A stretch of 64,000 nucleotides of DNA. Origin: Ignisphaera cupida. Its GTDB lineage: Archaea > Thermoproteota > Thermoprotei_A > Sulfolobales > Ignisphaeraceae. The notes beneath the pieces were generated by a model. That model was given only the letters and a program-made list of their open reading frames with translations, was not told the origin of the DNA and made no database searches. The stretch is taken from NCBI RefSeq assembly GCF_030186535.1, contig NZ_JASNVW010000001.1:496001-560000 (forward strand), read 5' to 3'. A program made the position numbers and the translations under genes. Positions 5 through 53,195 of this stretch are shown in pieces; position 1 is the first letter of the stretch; each line of letters starts with the position of its first letter.

Positions 5-1141
5 TTGGCGCTGATTTCAATATTAAATGAAGATAGTGTTTCGGCTATATCAATAATATACAACCAAAGTTTTGTAAATTCATATACAGAATATGTAAAG
101 CAAAATGTTAATAGCATTGCCATAATTTTAACTAATAGAAATACTAATTCTGGTGATGCATTAAGCAATAGCATTAATTTTCTAAACAGCAATGTAAAGA
201 AATACTACAAAATGTTAGCAAAACACCTACAATTCAATAGTCTTCACATAATTGTTCTAAGTCTCGATACCGAAAATGTTTTAAAAATTAAACTCAGGGA
301 TGATTATGGAAAAGACTCTTCTCTCACAATACCAATTAACAATCCATCATGGGAATTCGACAACTTGCCTGATCGCATAAAAGAAGATCTATATACTCTT
401 GTAATAGAACCTATAAATACTAATGCACAGTATGCTCCACGTGGCATAATAATAATTGGTCCTCCTGGCGTTGGAAAGAGTGTAACTGCTGAAGCTATAG
501 CAAGTGAACTTAGAAAAAAGATTGTGAGAATAAACCCAGGTGTATACAGGTCTATGTGGTATGGAATGACAGAGAAAATGCTTTTGTCACTATTTTCTTC
601 ACTTAAAAGAAAAAAGGATGTGGTTATTCTTGTTGATGATGCAGATTTCCTTGTAAATAGGTTTAATGCTATACACGAAGCTTTTATTGCTGAAATGAAT
701 ATGTGGCTAAATATACTACAGGATAGGGAGAGACCTCTTATAATAATGACAACAAACACTCCAGATATCATGGACCCTGCACTAATGAGACCAGGTAGGC
801 TAGATGTAACAGTGTTTATGGGGTATCCAGATAGAAAGATGAGAGAGAAAATAGTGTCTAATCTTTGCAAAAAGTATAGAGTGAAGTTAGCAAATGAGAT
901 TCTGATTAATGATTTGATATTAAGAACTAAATGGTTTAATGCTGCAGAACTTGATTCACTAGTTAGAATTGTTGCAAGTAAGGGAAGAGGTGTAATAACA
1001 GAAGATTCACTTGAATGGGCTTTAAGAAAATTCCATATAAACTATGGGGAGAGAAAAATAATTCAGGAAAGCATTGAAAGTTATGCATCAAAAATGCCAA
1101 ATGTTGTAATATCATATATCCCAAAAGAACATGAAATATAA
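5..1141 (+). CDS. AAA+ ATPase, possibly 5'-truncated by the window edge
   Basis: This is a single AAA+ ATPase module behind an N-terminal region of about 120 residues that I do not recognise. Walker A (GPPGVGKS) is near residues 152-159 and Walker B (VVILVDDAD) near 206-214. They are followed by a sensor-1/second-region-of-homology stretch containing TTNTPDIMDPALMRPGRLD with the arginine-finger region. The pattern is that of the Cdc48/proteasome-activating/Vps4 clade, but no CDC48 N-domain or PAN coiled coil is visible. A TTG codon at position 5 can serve as start, yet the frame stays open to the window edge, so the true start may lie further left. The substrate is unknown. Confidence 0.8.
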   Translation: MALISILNEDSVSAISIIYNQSFVNSYTEYVKQNVNSIAIILTNRNTNSGDALSNSINFLNSNVKKYYKMLAKHLQFNSLHIIVLSLDTENVLKIKLRDDYGKDSSLTIPINNPSWEFDNLPDRIKEDLYTLVIEPINTNAQYAPRGIIIIGPPGVGKSVTAEAIASELRKKIVRINPGVYRSMWYGMTEKMLLSLFSSLKRKKDVVILVDDADFLVNRFNAIHEAFIAEMNMWLNILQDRERPLIIMTTNTPDIMDPALMRPGRLDVTVFMGYPDRKMREKIVSNLCKKYRVKLANEILINDLILRTKWFNAAELDSLVRIVASKGRGVITEDSLEWALRKFHINYGERKIIQESIESYASKMPNVVISYIPKEHEI

Positions 1142-1173
1142 TATCTAAATCTTATTCAACACAGTTGTTATTA

Positions 1174-1461
1174 CTAATTTGTTTCAACCTTAATTTCCTG
1201 AGCTAGATCATCTGTAACTGAGTTACTAACCCTCTTCTTTACTACTGCAACAAAAACAATTGAATCGCCAACATCAACAGTATAAGCATACCCTTTCTTT
1301 ATATGAGCACTTTTCATTAAGACAGATAGTAAATTCACGTCGTTTCCACTACTTGATCTCTTGAAGCTTATGTAGTTATTGAGTGATACTAAAAGAGCTG
1401 CTATTAACAAAGCCAAAGTTGCAATTAATAGCATGTTTGATGTTATCATTAACAGCACCAT
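1174..1461 (-). CDS. Small membrane-anchored hypothetical protein
   Basis: This 95-residue protein has one long hydrophobic segment at about residues 5-27, followed by a basic stretch (around SFKRSS) and a soluble tail of about 65 residues. The tail contains an alternating pattern (YAYTVDVGDSIVFVAVV) that predicts beta strands. The layout suggests a single-pass membrane protein with a small cytoplasmic domain. It is convergent with the AAA+ gene and divergent from pyrG. I recognise no family, and the product is hypothetical. Confidence 0.5.
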   Translation of the reverse strand: MVLLMITSNMLLIATLALLIAALLVSLNNYISFKRSSSGNDVNLLSVLMKSAHIKKGYAYTVDVGDSIVFVAVVKKRVSNSVTDDLAQEIKVETN

Positions 1462-3333: not shown

Positions 3334-3381
3334 GAATAAGACTTGCTGTATGCAATAAGCGAAATAGACTATAGCAATTAC

Positions 3382-3438
3382 ATGATGAAACTTACAAGGA
3401 GTGAGCATTTTTGCAATGATCGATGAACCCGCGGCTGA
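3382..3438 (+). ncRNA. Box C/D sRNA candidate
   Basis: The elements and spacing fit an archaeal C/D guide RNA. Box C is ATGATGA (3382-3388), followed by a 12-nt guide (3389-3400), a degenerate D' GTGA (3401-3404), an 11-nt spacer, a degenerate C' ATGATCG (3416-3422), a second 12-nt guide (3423-3434) and box D CTGA (3435-3438). Both guides are exactly 12 nt and the RNA is 57 nt long. The D-guide would pair with CCGCGGGUUCAU and place the modification on the fifth base, a G. The terminal stem is weak. It lies between pyrG and the NSUN gene. Targets are unverified. Confidence 0.6.
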
Positions 3439-3476
3439 TCACAAAAGTATTGTCTTAAGCAAATCGGCTGAGCATT

Positions 3477-4505
3477 ATGCATGAAATATCTGTAGGTATC
3501 AATAACATTTTGAAGGACATAACTATTGATTTCATATCTGAAGAAGCTATGTATTTAGCTAGAAAATATGGATATGCACCATACATGGTTGAAAGATATT
3601 TAAGAATGTTAGGATATGAAGAGGCGTTGAAATTAATAGAGTCCTTTGAAAATTTTAGGAAAAGAATTGCAATACTTTGCAACTACCTAAGATATGACTG
3701 TGATAAGCTTTCGAAGAAACTTGAAAATATGAATTTCGTGTTGAAAAACATTCAATGGTGTAACTATTGCTTATATATTGAGACAGCTCCTTCATCACCT
3801 TCAATAGGATCAACTCATGAGTATTTGAAAGGCTATTACTATGTGTATAGAGATCAAGCATCTCTCATACCACCTCTGATACTAAATCCTGAGAAGAATT
3901 CAATAACGCTAGATATGTGTGCAGCGCCTGGTGGAAAAGCTGCTCACATCATGTTATTAATGGAGGATACAGGACTTCTTATAGCTAATGATATTTCAAG
4001 AAGAAGATCCATATCACTACTTTCACATTTCATAAGAATGGGGTTTAAATCATATATTGTAATAAATGAGAATGCCATTGAGCTTGTTAAAAAGTTTGGA
4101 AAGGAGAAATTTGATTATGTTCTTTTAGATGCGCCATGCAGTGCTGAAGGAGGTATAATGTTTGATCCTAGTAGAAAGACCAAGACTTCTATAGAGGTTT
4201 TAGCCAAGCTTGTAGAAAGAGAGATCAAGCTTCTTCATACAGCATTGCAATTAGTGAAGAGAGGCGGTAGAGTTGTATATACAACATGCAGTATTGCTCC
4301 AGAAGAAAATGAATATGTTGTTACAAAAGTACTTGAACATTATGATGGAATTGAGGTTGAGGAACCAAGACTTAATTACTGGTCAAACGGATTTACAAAA
4401 TTCTTGAATATAACATTTGATTATAGAGTTTCAAAGTGTATTAGAATTTGGCCTCATAGACATTTTATGGAGGGATATTTTATATGTTCGCTTGTCAAAA
4501 CTTAA
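3477..4505 (+). CDS. NOL1/NOP2/Sun-family RNA (cytosine-5) methyltransferase
   Basis: This is a SAM-dependent m5C RNA methylase acting on tRNA or rRNA. The C-terminal two thirds holds the Rossmann methylase: SAM-binding DMCAAPGGKAAH near residue 145, motif IV DAPCS near 218-222 and motif VI TTCS near 269-272. Both cysteines used by NSUN enzymes (release and nucleophile) are present. About 100 residues precede the catalytic core and may serve in RNA binding. The ATG at 3477 follows the sRNA candidate by under 40 bases. The exact target cannot be read from the sequence; archaeal paralogues modify C48/C49 or C72 of tRNA, or rRNA. Confidence 0.88.
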   Translation: MHEISVGINNILKDITIDFISEEAMYLARKYGYAPYMVERYLRMLGYEEALKLIESFENFRKRIAILCNYLRYDCDKLSKKLENMNFVLKNIQWCNYCLYIETAPSSPSIGSTHEYLKGYYYVYRDQASLIPPLILNPEKNSITLDMCAAPGGKAAHIMLLMEDTGLLIANDISRRRSISLLSHFIRMGFKSYIVINENAIELVKKFGKEKFDYVLLDAPCSAEGGIMFDPSRKTKTSIEVLAKLVEREIKLLHTALQLVKRGGRVVYTTCSIAPEENEYVVTKVLEHYDGIEVEEPRLNYWSNGFTKFLNITFDYRVSKCIRIWPHRHFMEGYFICSLVKT

Positions 4506-7585: not shown

Positions 7586-7770
7586 CCGTTTGTCCCTAGA
7601 GGGTTGTTCCGTGTTTTTTAGGGTTGTTTAGGGTTGCCTCTAGGGACTTCCACCTCGCCCACAGGTCACGTGCTATTACTGTGGGCTCACCGGCGGCGGT
7701 CGAGCCCAACGGCACGGGGCTCCCATCTAGAGGAGACGCGCCCAGGCTTGGAGCATTGCTCCCATCGCCT
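7586..7770 (-). ncRNA. Predicted TnpB guide (omega) RNA scaffold at the IS607 right end
   Basis: The 3' part of tnpB and the element end fold into successive hairpins on the minus strand. They are GGAGC/GCTCC (7750-7762), GAGCCC/GGGCTC, an 8-bp stem pairing 7679-7686 with 7657-7664, and a perfect 11-bp terminal stem pairing 7637-7647 with 7592-7602. The terminal stem is followed by AAACGG at the element end. TnpB nucleases are known to use RNAs made from this region, whose guide continues into the flank. Here the guide would read from 7585 downwards. The second copy at 9.8-10.0 kb supports the fold by compensatory changes. Confidence 0.6.
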
Positions 7771-8894
7771 AGGCGGGTCTTAAAGAGGAGGTTCCAGCAT
7801 GCAACTACATCGCGGTGCCATAGTTCACCTCCTCTACTGCATCTTCCTATTCTAGAGCCATTACCATAGTTTATTGGGGCATTGTGTATTGGACACGTCT
7901 TAGAAGTGTTCTTTGGATTAACATAAACCACCGGAACACCATACTTCCTAGCCACCTCATCTATTGCTTTCTGAATACCCCTGAAGGATGCTTGGTAAAT
8001 CCTATGCCGCAACTGCTCATCCCTAATCCTCTTAATCATGTTGTTGGCCGGTCTTCTATCCAGCTTCTCGAGGACAATGGCATATTGCCTCTCATAGGCG
8101 GCTCTGACTATAATGTTTGCCGTCTTCCACCTAATATCATTCTTTTTCTTCCTCTCCTTAAGTCTCCTCATAACCTTTCTCTTAGCCCCCGACCTCACGT
8201 CATACAGTTTATCGTACTTCTCCTGTATCCTCTTCCTGCGATAGTAGTAACCTAGGACAAGCTTCTCAATATCTGTTTTGAGGAGGTAGGCAGTGCCATC
8301 AACCAGTATGGTAACGTTGTTTTCATTCACATCAACAGATAGGTGACCTTTAGGTTCATACATTCCAACCTCCTTAACGAACATTAAGTTGATTATGAGT
8401 TGCCTATTTCTCTTATCAAGCTTTACCCGGGCTTCACTCGCTAGTCTCCATCCACGATTAATATACCTCCAATACTGCCTATGAGAGTTGAACTCCACTG
8501 TTACCCATCCCTCATGGGTCGCTATCTTAATAGAGGTCAAGCCACCTGGCTTCCACAGGTGGTCGTCGAGCCAGATACTGACTTTCCTAATCTCTGGGTA
8601 TTCTTTCTTAGCTAAACCCAATCTCTTCAGTCTCAGGAAGCCCCTAACTCTTGCAGACGCGTCCTGGCACGCAGTGTAGGCGTAGTGTGAGGGCAGGTGC
8701 TGGTAGAGACCCCTCAGCTCCCGGTACTTCAGCGCCTTAAGCTTCGTGAAAGAGGATACACCCTCCCTCACAGCATATAACGTGAGCTGCTCGACCATGT
8801 TCCGGTACATACCCTCGAGCTCGACGAAGACCCTGAAGAGTTTTCGTGGGAGAGGAGGTGTTTCAACAACAACGGTTCTAGCTACTCTCGCCAC
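7596..8894 (-). CDS. tnpB: TnpB, RNA-guided RuvC-like nuclease of IS607
   Basis: At 432 residues this is a full-length TnpB of the type ancestral to Cas12. The RuvC catalytic residues are readable: Asp in LSVDVNENN, Glu in IVLEKLDRR and Asp in ELWHRDVVACWNLL. The zinc-finger region is TCPIHNAPINYGNGSRIGRCS, with only part of the usual CxxC pairs, a variant I associate with crenarchaeal TnpBs. The C-terminal 50 residues beyond the last Asp overlap the guide-RNA scaffold and are probably constrained as RNA. The start is GTG at 8894, which overlaps the restored tnpA frame. The frame is intact. Confidence 0.9.
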   Translation of the reverse strand: MARVARTVVVETPPLPRKLFRVFVELEGMYRNMVEQLTLYAVREGVSSFTKLKALKYRELRGLYQHLPSHYAYTACQDASARVRGFLRLKRLGLAKKEYPEIRKVSIWLDDHLWKPGGLTSIKIATHEGWVTVEFNSHRQYWRYINRGWRLASEARVKLDKRNRQLIINLMFVKEVGMYEPKGHLSVDVNENNVTILVDGTAYLLKTDIEKLVLGYYYRRKRIQEKYDKLYDVRSGAKRKVMRRLKERKKKNDIRWKTANIIVRAAYERQYAIVLEKLDRRPANNMIKRIRDEQLRHRIYQASFRGIQKAIDEVARKYGVPVVYVNPKNTSKTCPIHNAPINYGNGSRIGRCSRGGELWHRDVVACWNLLFKTRLGDGSNAPSLGASPLDGSPVPLGSTAAGEPTVIARDLWARWKSLEATLNNPKKHGTTL

Positions 8895-9527
8895 TGCCCT
8901 TCTCGACCTCTTCTATTAGTTTTTTGAAGCCCTCGACGAGCTTCTTTTTCTTGTGACTCCTCATACCGTAGAACCTGCTTGCGAAGGACGTGACTATCTC
9001 TAGCAGTTCTTCCACTAGCTCCTGGTGGGCGTTTTGGGCTCCTCACCGAGAACAACCTCTATTCTGACTCCGTATTGCTTGAAGAAGTACTCGAGGTACT
9101 CAAAGCCAAACCTCGTTAACCTGTCTCTGTAGACAACTACCACAACGACCACCCTTCTATTAACGACGTAGTCGAATAGCTTGAGCAAGCTCCTCCGATT
9201 AGTCTTCAAGCCGCTGGTCACGTCGCTTAAAATATCGACTACTCTATAGCCCTTGGCTGAGCAGTACTGCACTAGGTGCTGGATCTGCCTCTCGAGATCG
9301 CTCTTTTGGTCGCTAGAGCTCACACGGGCATAAATAATAGCTCTAACTTCTTTAGCTTCTGATTTCCCTCCAAGAATACGCTCAACCTCAGAGTATAGTA
9401 TTCTTATCCTGCCACTAGGCGTTCGTACAATATTCACTCTACCTTCAGAAACCCACCGCTTAAAAGTCCTATAGCTAATTCCAACAACCTCGCAGAACTC
9501 CCTGGGCTTCAACAACTTCTCAAACAT
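8878..9527 (-). pseudogene. tnpA: TnpA serine recombinase of IS607, frameshifted near its C-terminus
   Basis: The first 170 residues hold a MerR-like helix-turn-helix (KPREFCEVVGISYRTFKRW) and the serine-recombinase core, with catalytic Ser in IIYARVSSSDQ and downstream RDRLTRFG. This frame stops at 9015. One base out of frame from 9027 to 8878 lies a 49-codon continuation starting HQELVEELLEIVTSF and including YGMRSHKKKK, the normal end of IS607 TnpA. Restoring one C in the C-run at 9027-9029 (minus strand) would join them into a protein of about 216 residues whose stop overlaps the tnpB GTG. It is a recent inactivation, a sequencing error or a translational frameshift. Confidence 0.85.
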
Positions 9528-9541
9528 TCGACCCTAACCAT

Positions 9542-9778
9542 CTATAAAATTCCCTCAATAACACTAATAAATATTTCTGCCCCAATACCATAGCCACAGT
9601 TGGTACATTTATAATTCTTTAGAATATCTAATTCATTGACTAGGGAAATAATTAGATATTGTTGTTTTCTAAAACACATGGGGCATTCAATCTCAAGTTC
9701 AAGATATATCCAATTCTCCATTAAATCTATCCAAAGTATTTTAATGGGGGATAACTCGAAAAATATGGGCTGTTTCAT
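9542..9778 (-). CDS. Small zinc-ribbon hypothetical protein
   Basis: This 78-residue protein has two cysteine pairs, CPMC and CTNC, separated by about 22 residues, consistent with one treble-clef or zinc-ribbon site. The first 20 residues are hydrophobic and may be dispensable, since an internal Met before ENWIYLELEIECPMC is an alternative start. It is sandwiched between the IS607 left end and the tnpB-less copy of the element's 3' end, on the opposite strand to the latter. It could be a passenger or a host gene isolated by the insertions. The function is unknown. Confidence 0.45.
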   Translation of the reverse strand: MKQPIFFELSPIKILWIDLMENWIYLELEIECPMCFRKQQYLIISLVNELDILKNYKCTNCGYGIGAEIFISVIEGIL

Positions 9779-9825
9779 TGTTGATGATGAGGCGTGAGGT
9801 TTATAAGCTCTGGTTTTGCTTGTGT

Positions 9826-10024
9826 TTGTAGAGCTCTGAGGGGCGATGGGAGCGTTGCTCCAAGCCCGTAGGCTTCAACGTAGATGGGAGCCCCGTGCCG
9901 TTGGGCTCGACAGCCACCCATGAACCCATGCTGATAGCACGTGATGCATGGGCGAGGTGGAAGTCCCTTGACGCAACCACAAACAAACATGAACTAATAG
10001 GGATGAGCGTCAAGGGACAAACGG
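9826..10024 (+). mobile_element. Solo IS607 3' end: tnpB relic retaining a guide-RNA fold
   Basis: The sequence is recognisably homologous to the last 200 bases of the neighbouring IS607 element but on the opposite strand, with no upstream tnpB. In the tnpB frame it reads GDGSVAPSP and then hits a stop. After a one-base shift it continues as DGSPVPLGSTATHEPMLIARDAWARWKSLDATTNK, so coding function is lost. The RNA hairpins persist: GGAGC/GCTCC at 9849-9861, GAGCCC/GGGCTC at 9888-9908, a 7-bp stem 9925-9931/9946-9952, and a perfect 12-bp terminal stem 9963-9974/10007-10018, then AAACGG at 10019-10024. Stem bases differ from the intact copy in paired fashion. Confidence 0.7.
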
Positions 10025-10126
10025 GAATTTCTATATCGAATTTATTCATAATACCTAATACCTTGGAGCTTATCTATTAGCCTTAAGTGATACACATTAT
10101 ATTCCCTTGTAATTTATGGGAATAAA

Positions 10127-41088: not shown

Positions 41089-41221
41089 GGCGACTCGACC
41101 CGGCCATAGCGGCTGGGCAACACCCGGACTCGTCAGATCCCGGAAGTTAAGCCAGCCGCGTTGGACGTGGCTGTGGCTTCCGAAAGGGGCCGCAGCCCGT
41201 CTAAGCCGGGATCGGGTCGCC
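41089..41221 (+). rRNA. rrf: 5S ribosomal RNA
   Basis: This GC-rich segment of about 133 nt has the 5S layout: terminal helix GGCGAC/GTCGCC (41089-41094/41216-41221), GACCCGGCCATAGCGG in helix II, the loop sequence AACACCCGGACTCGTC-AGATCCCGGAAGTTAAGCC (conserved 5S core with CCCGGAAGUUAAGC) and the partner GGGAUCGGGUCGCC. It stands alone, unlinked to 16S/23S, as is common in crenarchaea. A TATA-like TTTTAAA at 41057-41063 lies about 29 bases upstream. Ends are set by the terminal pairing and may be off by a few bases. Confidence 0.95.
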
Positions 41222-52382: not shown

Positions 52383-53078
52383 ATGTCAAAGGCTATAAGC
52401 TATTTAGAGTGGTTAAGAAGATTTATCAGATTTAAACTTTGGTGGCTTAAAGCAAAACCATTGAATGATGAAGGAATAGCTAAGTTATCTACTAGCATAG
52501 CATTAAAAATAGGTATTAAACCATTCAAATATATTAAAGAAGCTAATGCCCCATTTTATAATGCAGTGGTTTTTGGGTTAAGATGTAGAACAATTATAAT
52601 AACAAAAGCTCTGCACAACTTGAGTTGGGATTACATAGAGGCTGTTTTACTTCATGAATATGCACATTGCAAGTTAAAGCATAGTATCAAGATCACAATT
52701 ACTGCAAGCATGTTACTTTCTATACTAACAGGAATAACAATATATGAACTTCAATTCTTATCAACCATAGCAGATGCTATGATATTGATGATGGTTTTTG
52801 TATTTGCCTATATATCAATACATATGTTGCTAAAATACATTACAAGAAAATTTGAACTAGAAGCAGATCTCTTTGCAATATCCAATACCTCTAACCCCTG
52901 CTCATATCTAAAGCTTCTTGCATTTCTTGGTCAATGGGAGAAAAATAAAGAGGATTTAATATCAAAACTACTTGCAACACACCCATTAGCAAGAACAAGA
53001 ATCAAAAATATTTTGAAGAAATTCCCATATTTCATGAAATGTTTTGAACAAGATTATGGTGGGCCCGGGGGGATTTGA
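52383..53078 (+). CDS. M48-type membrane metalloprotease
   Basis: This protein of about 231 residues has zinc motif LLHEYAHCKLKHS (HExxH) near residue 96, two hydrophobic segments after it (ITASMLLSILTGITIYEL and MILMMVFVFAYISIHMLL) and the third ligand Glu in KFELEADLFAIS. This is the HtpX/Ste24 arrangement with a short N-terminus. HPLARTRIKNIL is also typical. ATG 52383 is chosen over TTG 52344, which would overlap the ASCH gene. Its last six codons overlap the 3' end of the oppositely oriented tRNA-Trp gene. Confidence 0.88.
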   Translation: MSKAISYLEWLRRFIRFKLWWLKAKPLNDEGIAKLSTSIALKIGIKPFKYIKEANAPFYNAVVFGLRCRTIIITKALHNLSWDYIEAVLLHEYAHCKLKHSIKITITASMLLSILTGITIYELQFLSTIADAMILMMVFVFAYISIHMLLKYITRKFELEADLFAISNTSNPCSYLKLLAFLGQWEKNKEDLISKLLATHPLARTRIKNILKKFPYFMKCFEQDYGGPGGI

Positions 53079-53195
53079 ACCCCCGACCTACGGGTCTCTC
53101 CTCAACGCTCCAGCCCCCTCTCATCCCATAGCGGTCAACAGACCCATAGATTTTTAGCTGGAGCCCGCCGCTCTACCTAGCTGAGCTACGGGCCC
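53060..53195 (-). tRNA. tRNA-Trp(CCA) with a 62-nt intron
   Basis: Minus-strand cloverleaf: acceptor GGGCCCG/CGGGCCC, D arm GCTC-AGCTAGGTA-GAGC, anticodon stem GCGGG/CCCGT with loop CTCCAGA after splicing, giving anticodon CCA, and T arm GGGGG-TTCAAAT-CCCCC. The intron (about 53096-53157) interrupts after position 37, the canonical archaeal site. It contains GCTGGAGC, which can pair with exon GCTCCAGC as part of a bulge-helix-bulge. Genomic CCA follows discriminator A. The mature length is 74 nt. A TATA-like GTATATAAGG is at about 53240-53250 upstream. Confidence 0.94.

Follow-up and report, generated by a model that had tools for sequence, protein, structure and literature searches.

The stretch at 9768-10024 on the forward strand of the window (the whole 64,000-nucleotide length of Ignisphaera cupida DNA that was analysed) is a complete miniature, non-autonomous IS607 element, whose 255 bp are followed by a second copy of the GG core. 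In the reading that we favor, and consider somewhat probable, an internal deletion of tnpA and almost all of tnpB joined the left end of a larger element to its guide-RNA region and right end, leaving a guide RNA that could load a TnpB encoded elsewhere. The element is laid out as a left end with a TATA box, a guide-RNA scaffold and a right end, with the GG core at both ends. The left-end recombination core lies at 9768-9769, where the target reads G[GG]; the element starts with GG followed by CTGTTTC (9768) and ends with AAAC followed by GG (10024). The TATA box, TTTATAA, is at 9800-9806, a position like that in most family-1 left ends, and from archaeal promoter spacing transcription is predicted to start at about 9826-9832, just before the first hairpin of the scaffold (H1). 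An earlier note on this DNA had described 9826-10024 as a tnpB-less 3' end, but the unit proves to be larger, beginning at the left-end core and having a left end and promoter of its own. Relatives of full length with the same two ends are present in the same genome (L009, 85%, and L012) and in two other species of its genus (G001 and G004, 72-73%).

The assignment to IS607 comes from the ends. Both are common to an element that codes for an IS607 serine recombinase (over the NF033518 cut-off), and the element is without terminal inverted repeats and has a dinucleotide core with no further duplication of the target. Identity as a classical MITE was considered and rejected, since only the dinucleotide core is shared and there are neither terminal inverted repeats nor a target-site duplication. 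The left 60 bases are of the type that begins complete IS607 elements (L077 and L080, which have tnpA plus tnpB) and L013 (C3:84.3k), the second tnpB-bearing element of this genome. They are unlike the left end of the neighboring IS607 in the window; the right end aligns with that of this neighbor, and the match of 9826-10024 that the earlier note had pointed out is confirmed (77% over query 17-199, E 2.5e-34). Two other miniature elements, L010 and L011, carry the neighbor's type of left end (46 of 54 bases in L010). The presence of two left-end types indicates that the miniature elements have several parents, each of which lost tnpA and the larger part of tnpB. The note's further statement that the tnpB reading had been lost holds in part: in the H1 region the frame changes and a stop codon occurs, yet the last ~45 codons are still open.

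The neighboring IS607 (7586-9582, reverse strand) carries tnpB, a tnpA with a frameshift and, at its right end, a guide RNA of its own. Its TnpB (432 aa; 7596-8894, reverse strand) matches Pfam PF07282, is over the TIGR01766 cut-off and has the D/E/D residues of a RuvC site, D188, E276 and D362 being invariant in an alignment with relatives; against NF040570 it stays below the cut-off (88 of 100 bits). Foldseek with a weak model of this protein (pLDDT 64) gave matches to Cas12f, ISFba1 TnpB and TnpB-omegaRNA. A phmmer search of PDB gave no match at 0.001, the profile and fold searches doing better. The protein is a possible partner in trans for the RNA of the mini-element. The TnpA (9015-9527, reverse strand) scores 187 bits against NF033518 (cut-off 110), but its C-terminal end is out of frame, whereas its relatives L106 and L108 continue in one frame. 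For this reason the neighboring element is probably not autonomous, and present-day movement would need another TnpA. No intact close TnpA was found in this genome, the best being a 46%-identical protein of 207 aa.

The segment 9826-10024 folds more stably than its shuffled versions (z -3.4; 1 in 200 shuffles was as good), and four hairpins can be drawn in it. H1 (9832-9875) has an intact inner stem (9849-9853/9857-9861) and a weakened outer stem. H2 (9888-9908) has the stem GAGCCC/GGGCTC, and its loop holds the sequence CCGTT at 9898-9902, complementary to the AACGG at 10020-10024 with which the element ends. These two strands form a predicted pseudoknot, and the last two bases of the 3' strand are the GG of the right-end core. 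H3 (9914-9960) has an outer stem CCACC/GGTGG and a seven-base inner stem (9925-9931/9946-9952), and the terminal hairpin, H4 (9963-10018), has arms at 9963-9974 and 10007-10018. If the outer H1 stem and the tip of H3 are left out, 39 of 39 pairs are intact in the mini-element, namely those of the inner H1 stem, H2, the pseudoknot, both H3 stems and H4. The features expected of a TnpB guide RNA are found together: position at the right end, an end at the element boundary with the guide in the flank, conserved stem-loops with covariation, and a pseudoknot beside the guide (CCGTT/AACGG here, GCGTT/AACGC in a sister family described below). Nothing in the 64-kb window scored as high as the gathering threshold of an Rfam guide-RNA family.

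The earlier note had argued that this scaffold kept its fold by compensatory changes, and the comparison with the neighboring IS607 copy bears out each detail. The inner H3 stem reads CCCATGC/GCATGGG as against CCCACAG/CTGTGGG, three pairs having changed on both sides around an identical apical ATAGCACGTGA; in the terminal stem two pairs have changed on both sides (T-A/A-T and C-G/G-C); and both copies finish with the same GGGACAAACGG. The argument extends to the relatives (23 solo copies, that is, scaffolds without tnpB, and 14 tnpB-linked ones), in which the covariance analysis proposed in the note shows co-varying stems. Among the solos alone, 89.0% of cells pair and both partners have changed in 27 of 55 pairs; the 106 double-change cells compare with a shuffle mean of 44 (0 of 500 shuffles reached as many), and the covariation score of 0.289 falls to at most 0.115 when the partner is slid by one to three bases. 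In the tnpB-linked copies pairing is higher (94.8%), and part of the solo covariation is inherited from full-length parents. A covariance model gives the mini-element 157 bits and the tnpB-linked copy in the window 145, both copies having belonged to its training set.

Such inheritance is the basis of an alternative that we regard as unlikely, although it is the strongest of the rivals: the mini-element would be an inert relic that owes its fold to a full-length parent of recent date. That fold would now be in neutral decay, and for movement nothing but the DNA ends would matter. Pairing is indeed uneven among the solos, several of which (L012, L014, L072, L075) have clearly decayed, and what is left of the tnpB frame has in many of them stayed open, hence such copies are young. 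Since solos may carry variation from full-length parents, the useful comparison is between two solos that have parted after losing tnpB. The mini-element and L009 (C1:127.5k) have an identical junction between left end and guide region, which indicates a tnpB-less common ancestor. They differ at 17 stem bases, and seven of the nine changed pairs are double and canonical (hypergeometric p 8.5e-7); none of 100,000 random placements retained as many pairs. Pairing has thus been kept through seven double changes since the deletion, which argues against neutral decay, as do the intact hairpins (the outer H1 stem apart) and pseudoknot of the mini-element and the promoter retained in its left end. 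The same comparison supports the favored reading.

A second alternative, which we hold to be quite improbable, places the upkeep at the DNA level: template switching or gene conversion would make one arm of a hairpin match the other, or the hairpins would be needed as DNA in recombination, with no selection on RNA. Exchange between arms does happen, as shown by inversion of the terminal-hairpin loop between intact arms in L011, L142 and L192 and of an H1 segment in L100 and L109. The terminal stem of the mini-element resembles that of L014, so that block exchange is possible. Nor do wobble pairs favor RNA: without the outer H1 stem, G.U and A.C number 43 and 32 (p 0.25), and significance is reached only by including that stem. 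Since its register in the alignment is uncertain, we do not use this comparison as support. On the other hand, no donor for the H3 variant of the mini-element is present among the compared loci, and IS607 recombination is not known to need 140 bp of hairpins. Template switching also leaves unexplained the pseudoknot, which is non-palindromic, has distant strands, and is both kept and co-switching. The loop inversions themselves (L011, at 3356-3550 on the reverse strand, compared with L010; L142 with L138; L192 with L190) belong to three separate lineages. In L100 (~1125-1190, reverse strand) and L109 (~1150-1190, reverse strand) the inner part of H1 is inverted, GGCTTGGAGC..GCTCCCATC replacing GATGGGAGC..GCTCCAAGCC, and one of the two inversions sits inside a tnpB-bearing element.

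A second family of miniature elements in the same genome (L015-L020, L022 and L023, with the tnpB-linked L021) has GC as its core. Here the H2 loop reads GCGTT and the right end AACGC, so the loop co-varies with the 3' strand of the pseudoknot between the two families. The pseudoknot is kept in 97% of solo cells in spite of the ~120 nt between its strands, and in ~90 of 94 distinct copies the second core position is paired with the base opposite to it. Fisher p-values for these counts disregard kinship and are given no weight. Four apparent exceptions (L045, L052, L065, L104) are not counted, the pattern having matched inside the terminal loop; the true mismatches are L124 and L181 together with two GG/GC chimeras. 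In these chimeras, L131 (near 7530, reverse strand) and L082 (near 1001-1140, reverse strand), halves of the two families are joined. A third loop type, ACGTT, for which the predicted end is AACGT, was searched for in 229 genomes and is present in one; of its two copies with an intact right end, one ends in AACGT and the other in AACGC. Judged from the sequences, the fold of the guide RNA and the recombination core change together between the GG and GC families. This co-switch is mostly one switch between two old families and may be a single event, and is to be read as strong consistency rather than as a repeated experiment. Tentatively, and with more doubt than confidence, we suggest that the guide-only IS607 elements form two separate sets of trans-acting guides within a single genome. 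TnpA would recognize the core as DNA, and TnpB would recognize it in the pseudoknot of the RNA. Neither the core nor the guide RNA could then change without the other, which would tie the miniature elements of each family to their own TnpA and TnpB.

Insertion can be followed in sister copies. L009 (3471-3728) lies inside a gene, and its removal with one GG leaves an open stretch of 342 codons; orthologues in six genomes read FFWG^PWT uninterrupted across the junction. The product of this gene presumably resembles the CRISPR-associated CARF/Csa3 proteins. L015, of the GC family, interrupts another gene, whose frame is restored by removing the element with one GC and whose orthologues read IG^YIGEV. 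The uninterrupted orthologues prove insertion for these sister copies, with duplication of the dinucleotide only. The earlier note had offered as one possibility a relic of a diverged element. Instead, a covariance-model search puts the number of scaffolds in this genome at 24, of which four are tnpB-adjacent (C1:503.6k, C3:84.3k, C2:250.1k and C1:452.6k) and 20 have no tnpB beside them, and the ~20 tnpB-less copies belong to a large family of miniature IS607 that looks mobile in trans. G004 has 63 scaffolds. The same kind of element, guide-RNA scaffold included, is seen in G035 (L190, L191, L194, L196, L197), and the motif recurs in Ignisphaera sp. RSNS13 and in Zestosphaera records. Six scaffolds are present in G018 and five in G023, genomes of at least 98% completeness, but neither has a detectable TnpB or TnpA of this IS607 family, so that a partner is not always present. 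In the 99%-complete G023, three miniature elements of ~240 bp (L198, L199, L200) are identical and lie at different sites. Such solos without partner genes, and the spread of the triplicate without a resident TnpB, are what an inert relic moved by its ends would give.

The mechanism that we propose for the guide-only element is as follows. An IS607 TnpA acting in trans would move it, as judged from its ends. The left-end promoter would produce an RNA of ~200-220 nt that runs through the scaffold and takes its guide, at the 3' end, from the flanking sequence. This guide is predicted at 10025-10044, following the core, by analogy with ISXfa1 (PMC10711439); its start at 10025, as given in the earlier note, agrees with the covariation of the relatives and the conserved pseudoknot. 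A TnpB made elsewhere in the genome would load the RNA and cut the empty site, where NGGG adjoins the guide match, and repair would copy the mini-element back. The solo would then be a parasite reduced to its guide, exploiting the means by which its parent element is retained. The genomic search that the note had suggested for the bases after 10024 gave no second match with a GG core: core plus guide has no other site within two mismatches, and the two sites with three mismatches are without GG. A TnpB carrying this guide would therefore cut only the empty allele. No exact 20-nt match to the guide was found in the viral contigs searched. A very improbable alternative is that the RNA acts as a decoy or regulator, which would occupy TnpB but give it no useful target, or that the host has co-opted it. 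The ratio of solo to tnpB-linked guide RNAs in this genome (20 to 4) and the lack of another genomic target would suit such a role, but both the position and the structure of the guide are intact, it would recognize the empty site, and the copies lie at scattered sites with no conserved neighborhood.

Other elements are known to dispense with tnpB. PATE-type and other non-autonomous IS200/IS605 elements lack tnpB, carry an omegaRNA and could use TnpB in trans. The present elements differ from them in having IS607 serine-recombinase ends rather than single-strand hairpin ends, and in that the core joins the pseudoknot. A close parallel is ISXfa1, in whose TnpB reRNA/omegaRNA a pseudoknot links a stem-loop to the 3' end and a flanking base is included in the scaffold (PMC10711439). 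Shared with it are the GG core, the right-flanking base in the scaffold, the pseudoknot and the guide beyond the element end. Unlike ISXfa1, the solo guide RNA lies in an element with neither tnpA nor tnpB, has its own promoter and four hairpins, and has a sister family that switched core and pseudoknot base together. ISFba1 combines an IS607 TnpB with a RAGATH-18-derived RNA that is independent of the coding sequence (PMC11061315). The two systems are alike in the IS607 TnpB, the structured right-end RNA and the pseudoknots, but in the full elements described here the guide RNA overlaps tnpB. In Staphylothermus marinus, MITEs of ~260 nt related to IS607 were described in 2009 (PMC2678158), and these resemble the present elements in size, order of archaea, relation to IS607 and interruption of genes. 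That description gave them inverted repeats and similarity upstream of transposase ORFs, a TnpB guide RNA going unnoticed. A link between MITEs and TnpB guides was not found in the freely accessible literature searched. What is new here is the guide-only IS607 element that has a promoter of its own, the excess of such elements over tnpB, and the co-switch of core and pseudoknot.

Since guide-only elements far outnumber tnpB in this genome, a single nuclease may be at the service of many elements that parasitize its transposon. If solo RNAs load TnpB, one nuclease would guard many sites, and it would be the guide RNA, not the nuclease, that spreads. The arrangement would then be intermediate between the private guide of a transposon and a CRISPR-like set of guides with one effector. 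It would also offer a possible function for the small IS607-related repeats filed as MITEs in Desulfurococcales-type archaea. The question why IS607 TnpBs include flanking bases in the scaffold finds a clean natural experiment in the GG/GC pair.

Two other RNA features were seen in the window. At 53060-53195 (reverse strand) an Rfam tRNA match spans 136 nt and is probably an intron-containing tRNA gene, and at 41096-41179 (forward strand) there is a 5S rRNA match with a short span of 84 nt (43.7 bits).
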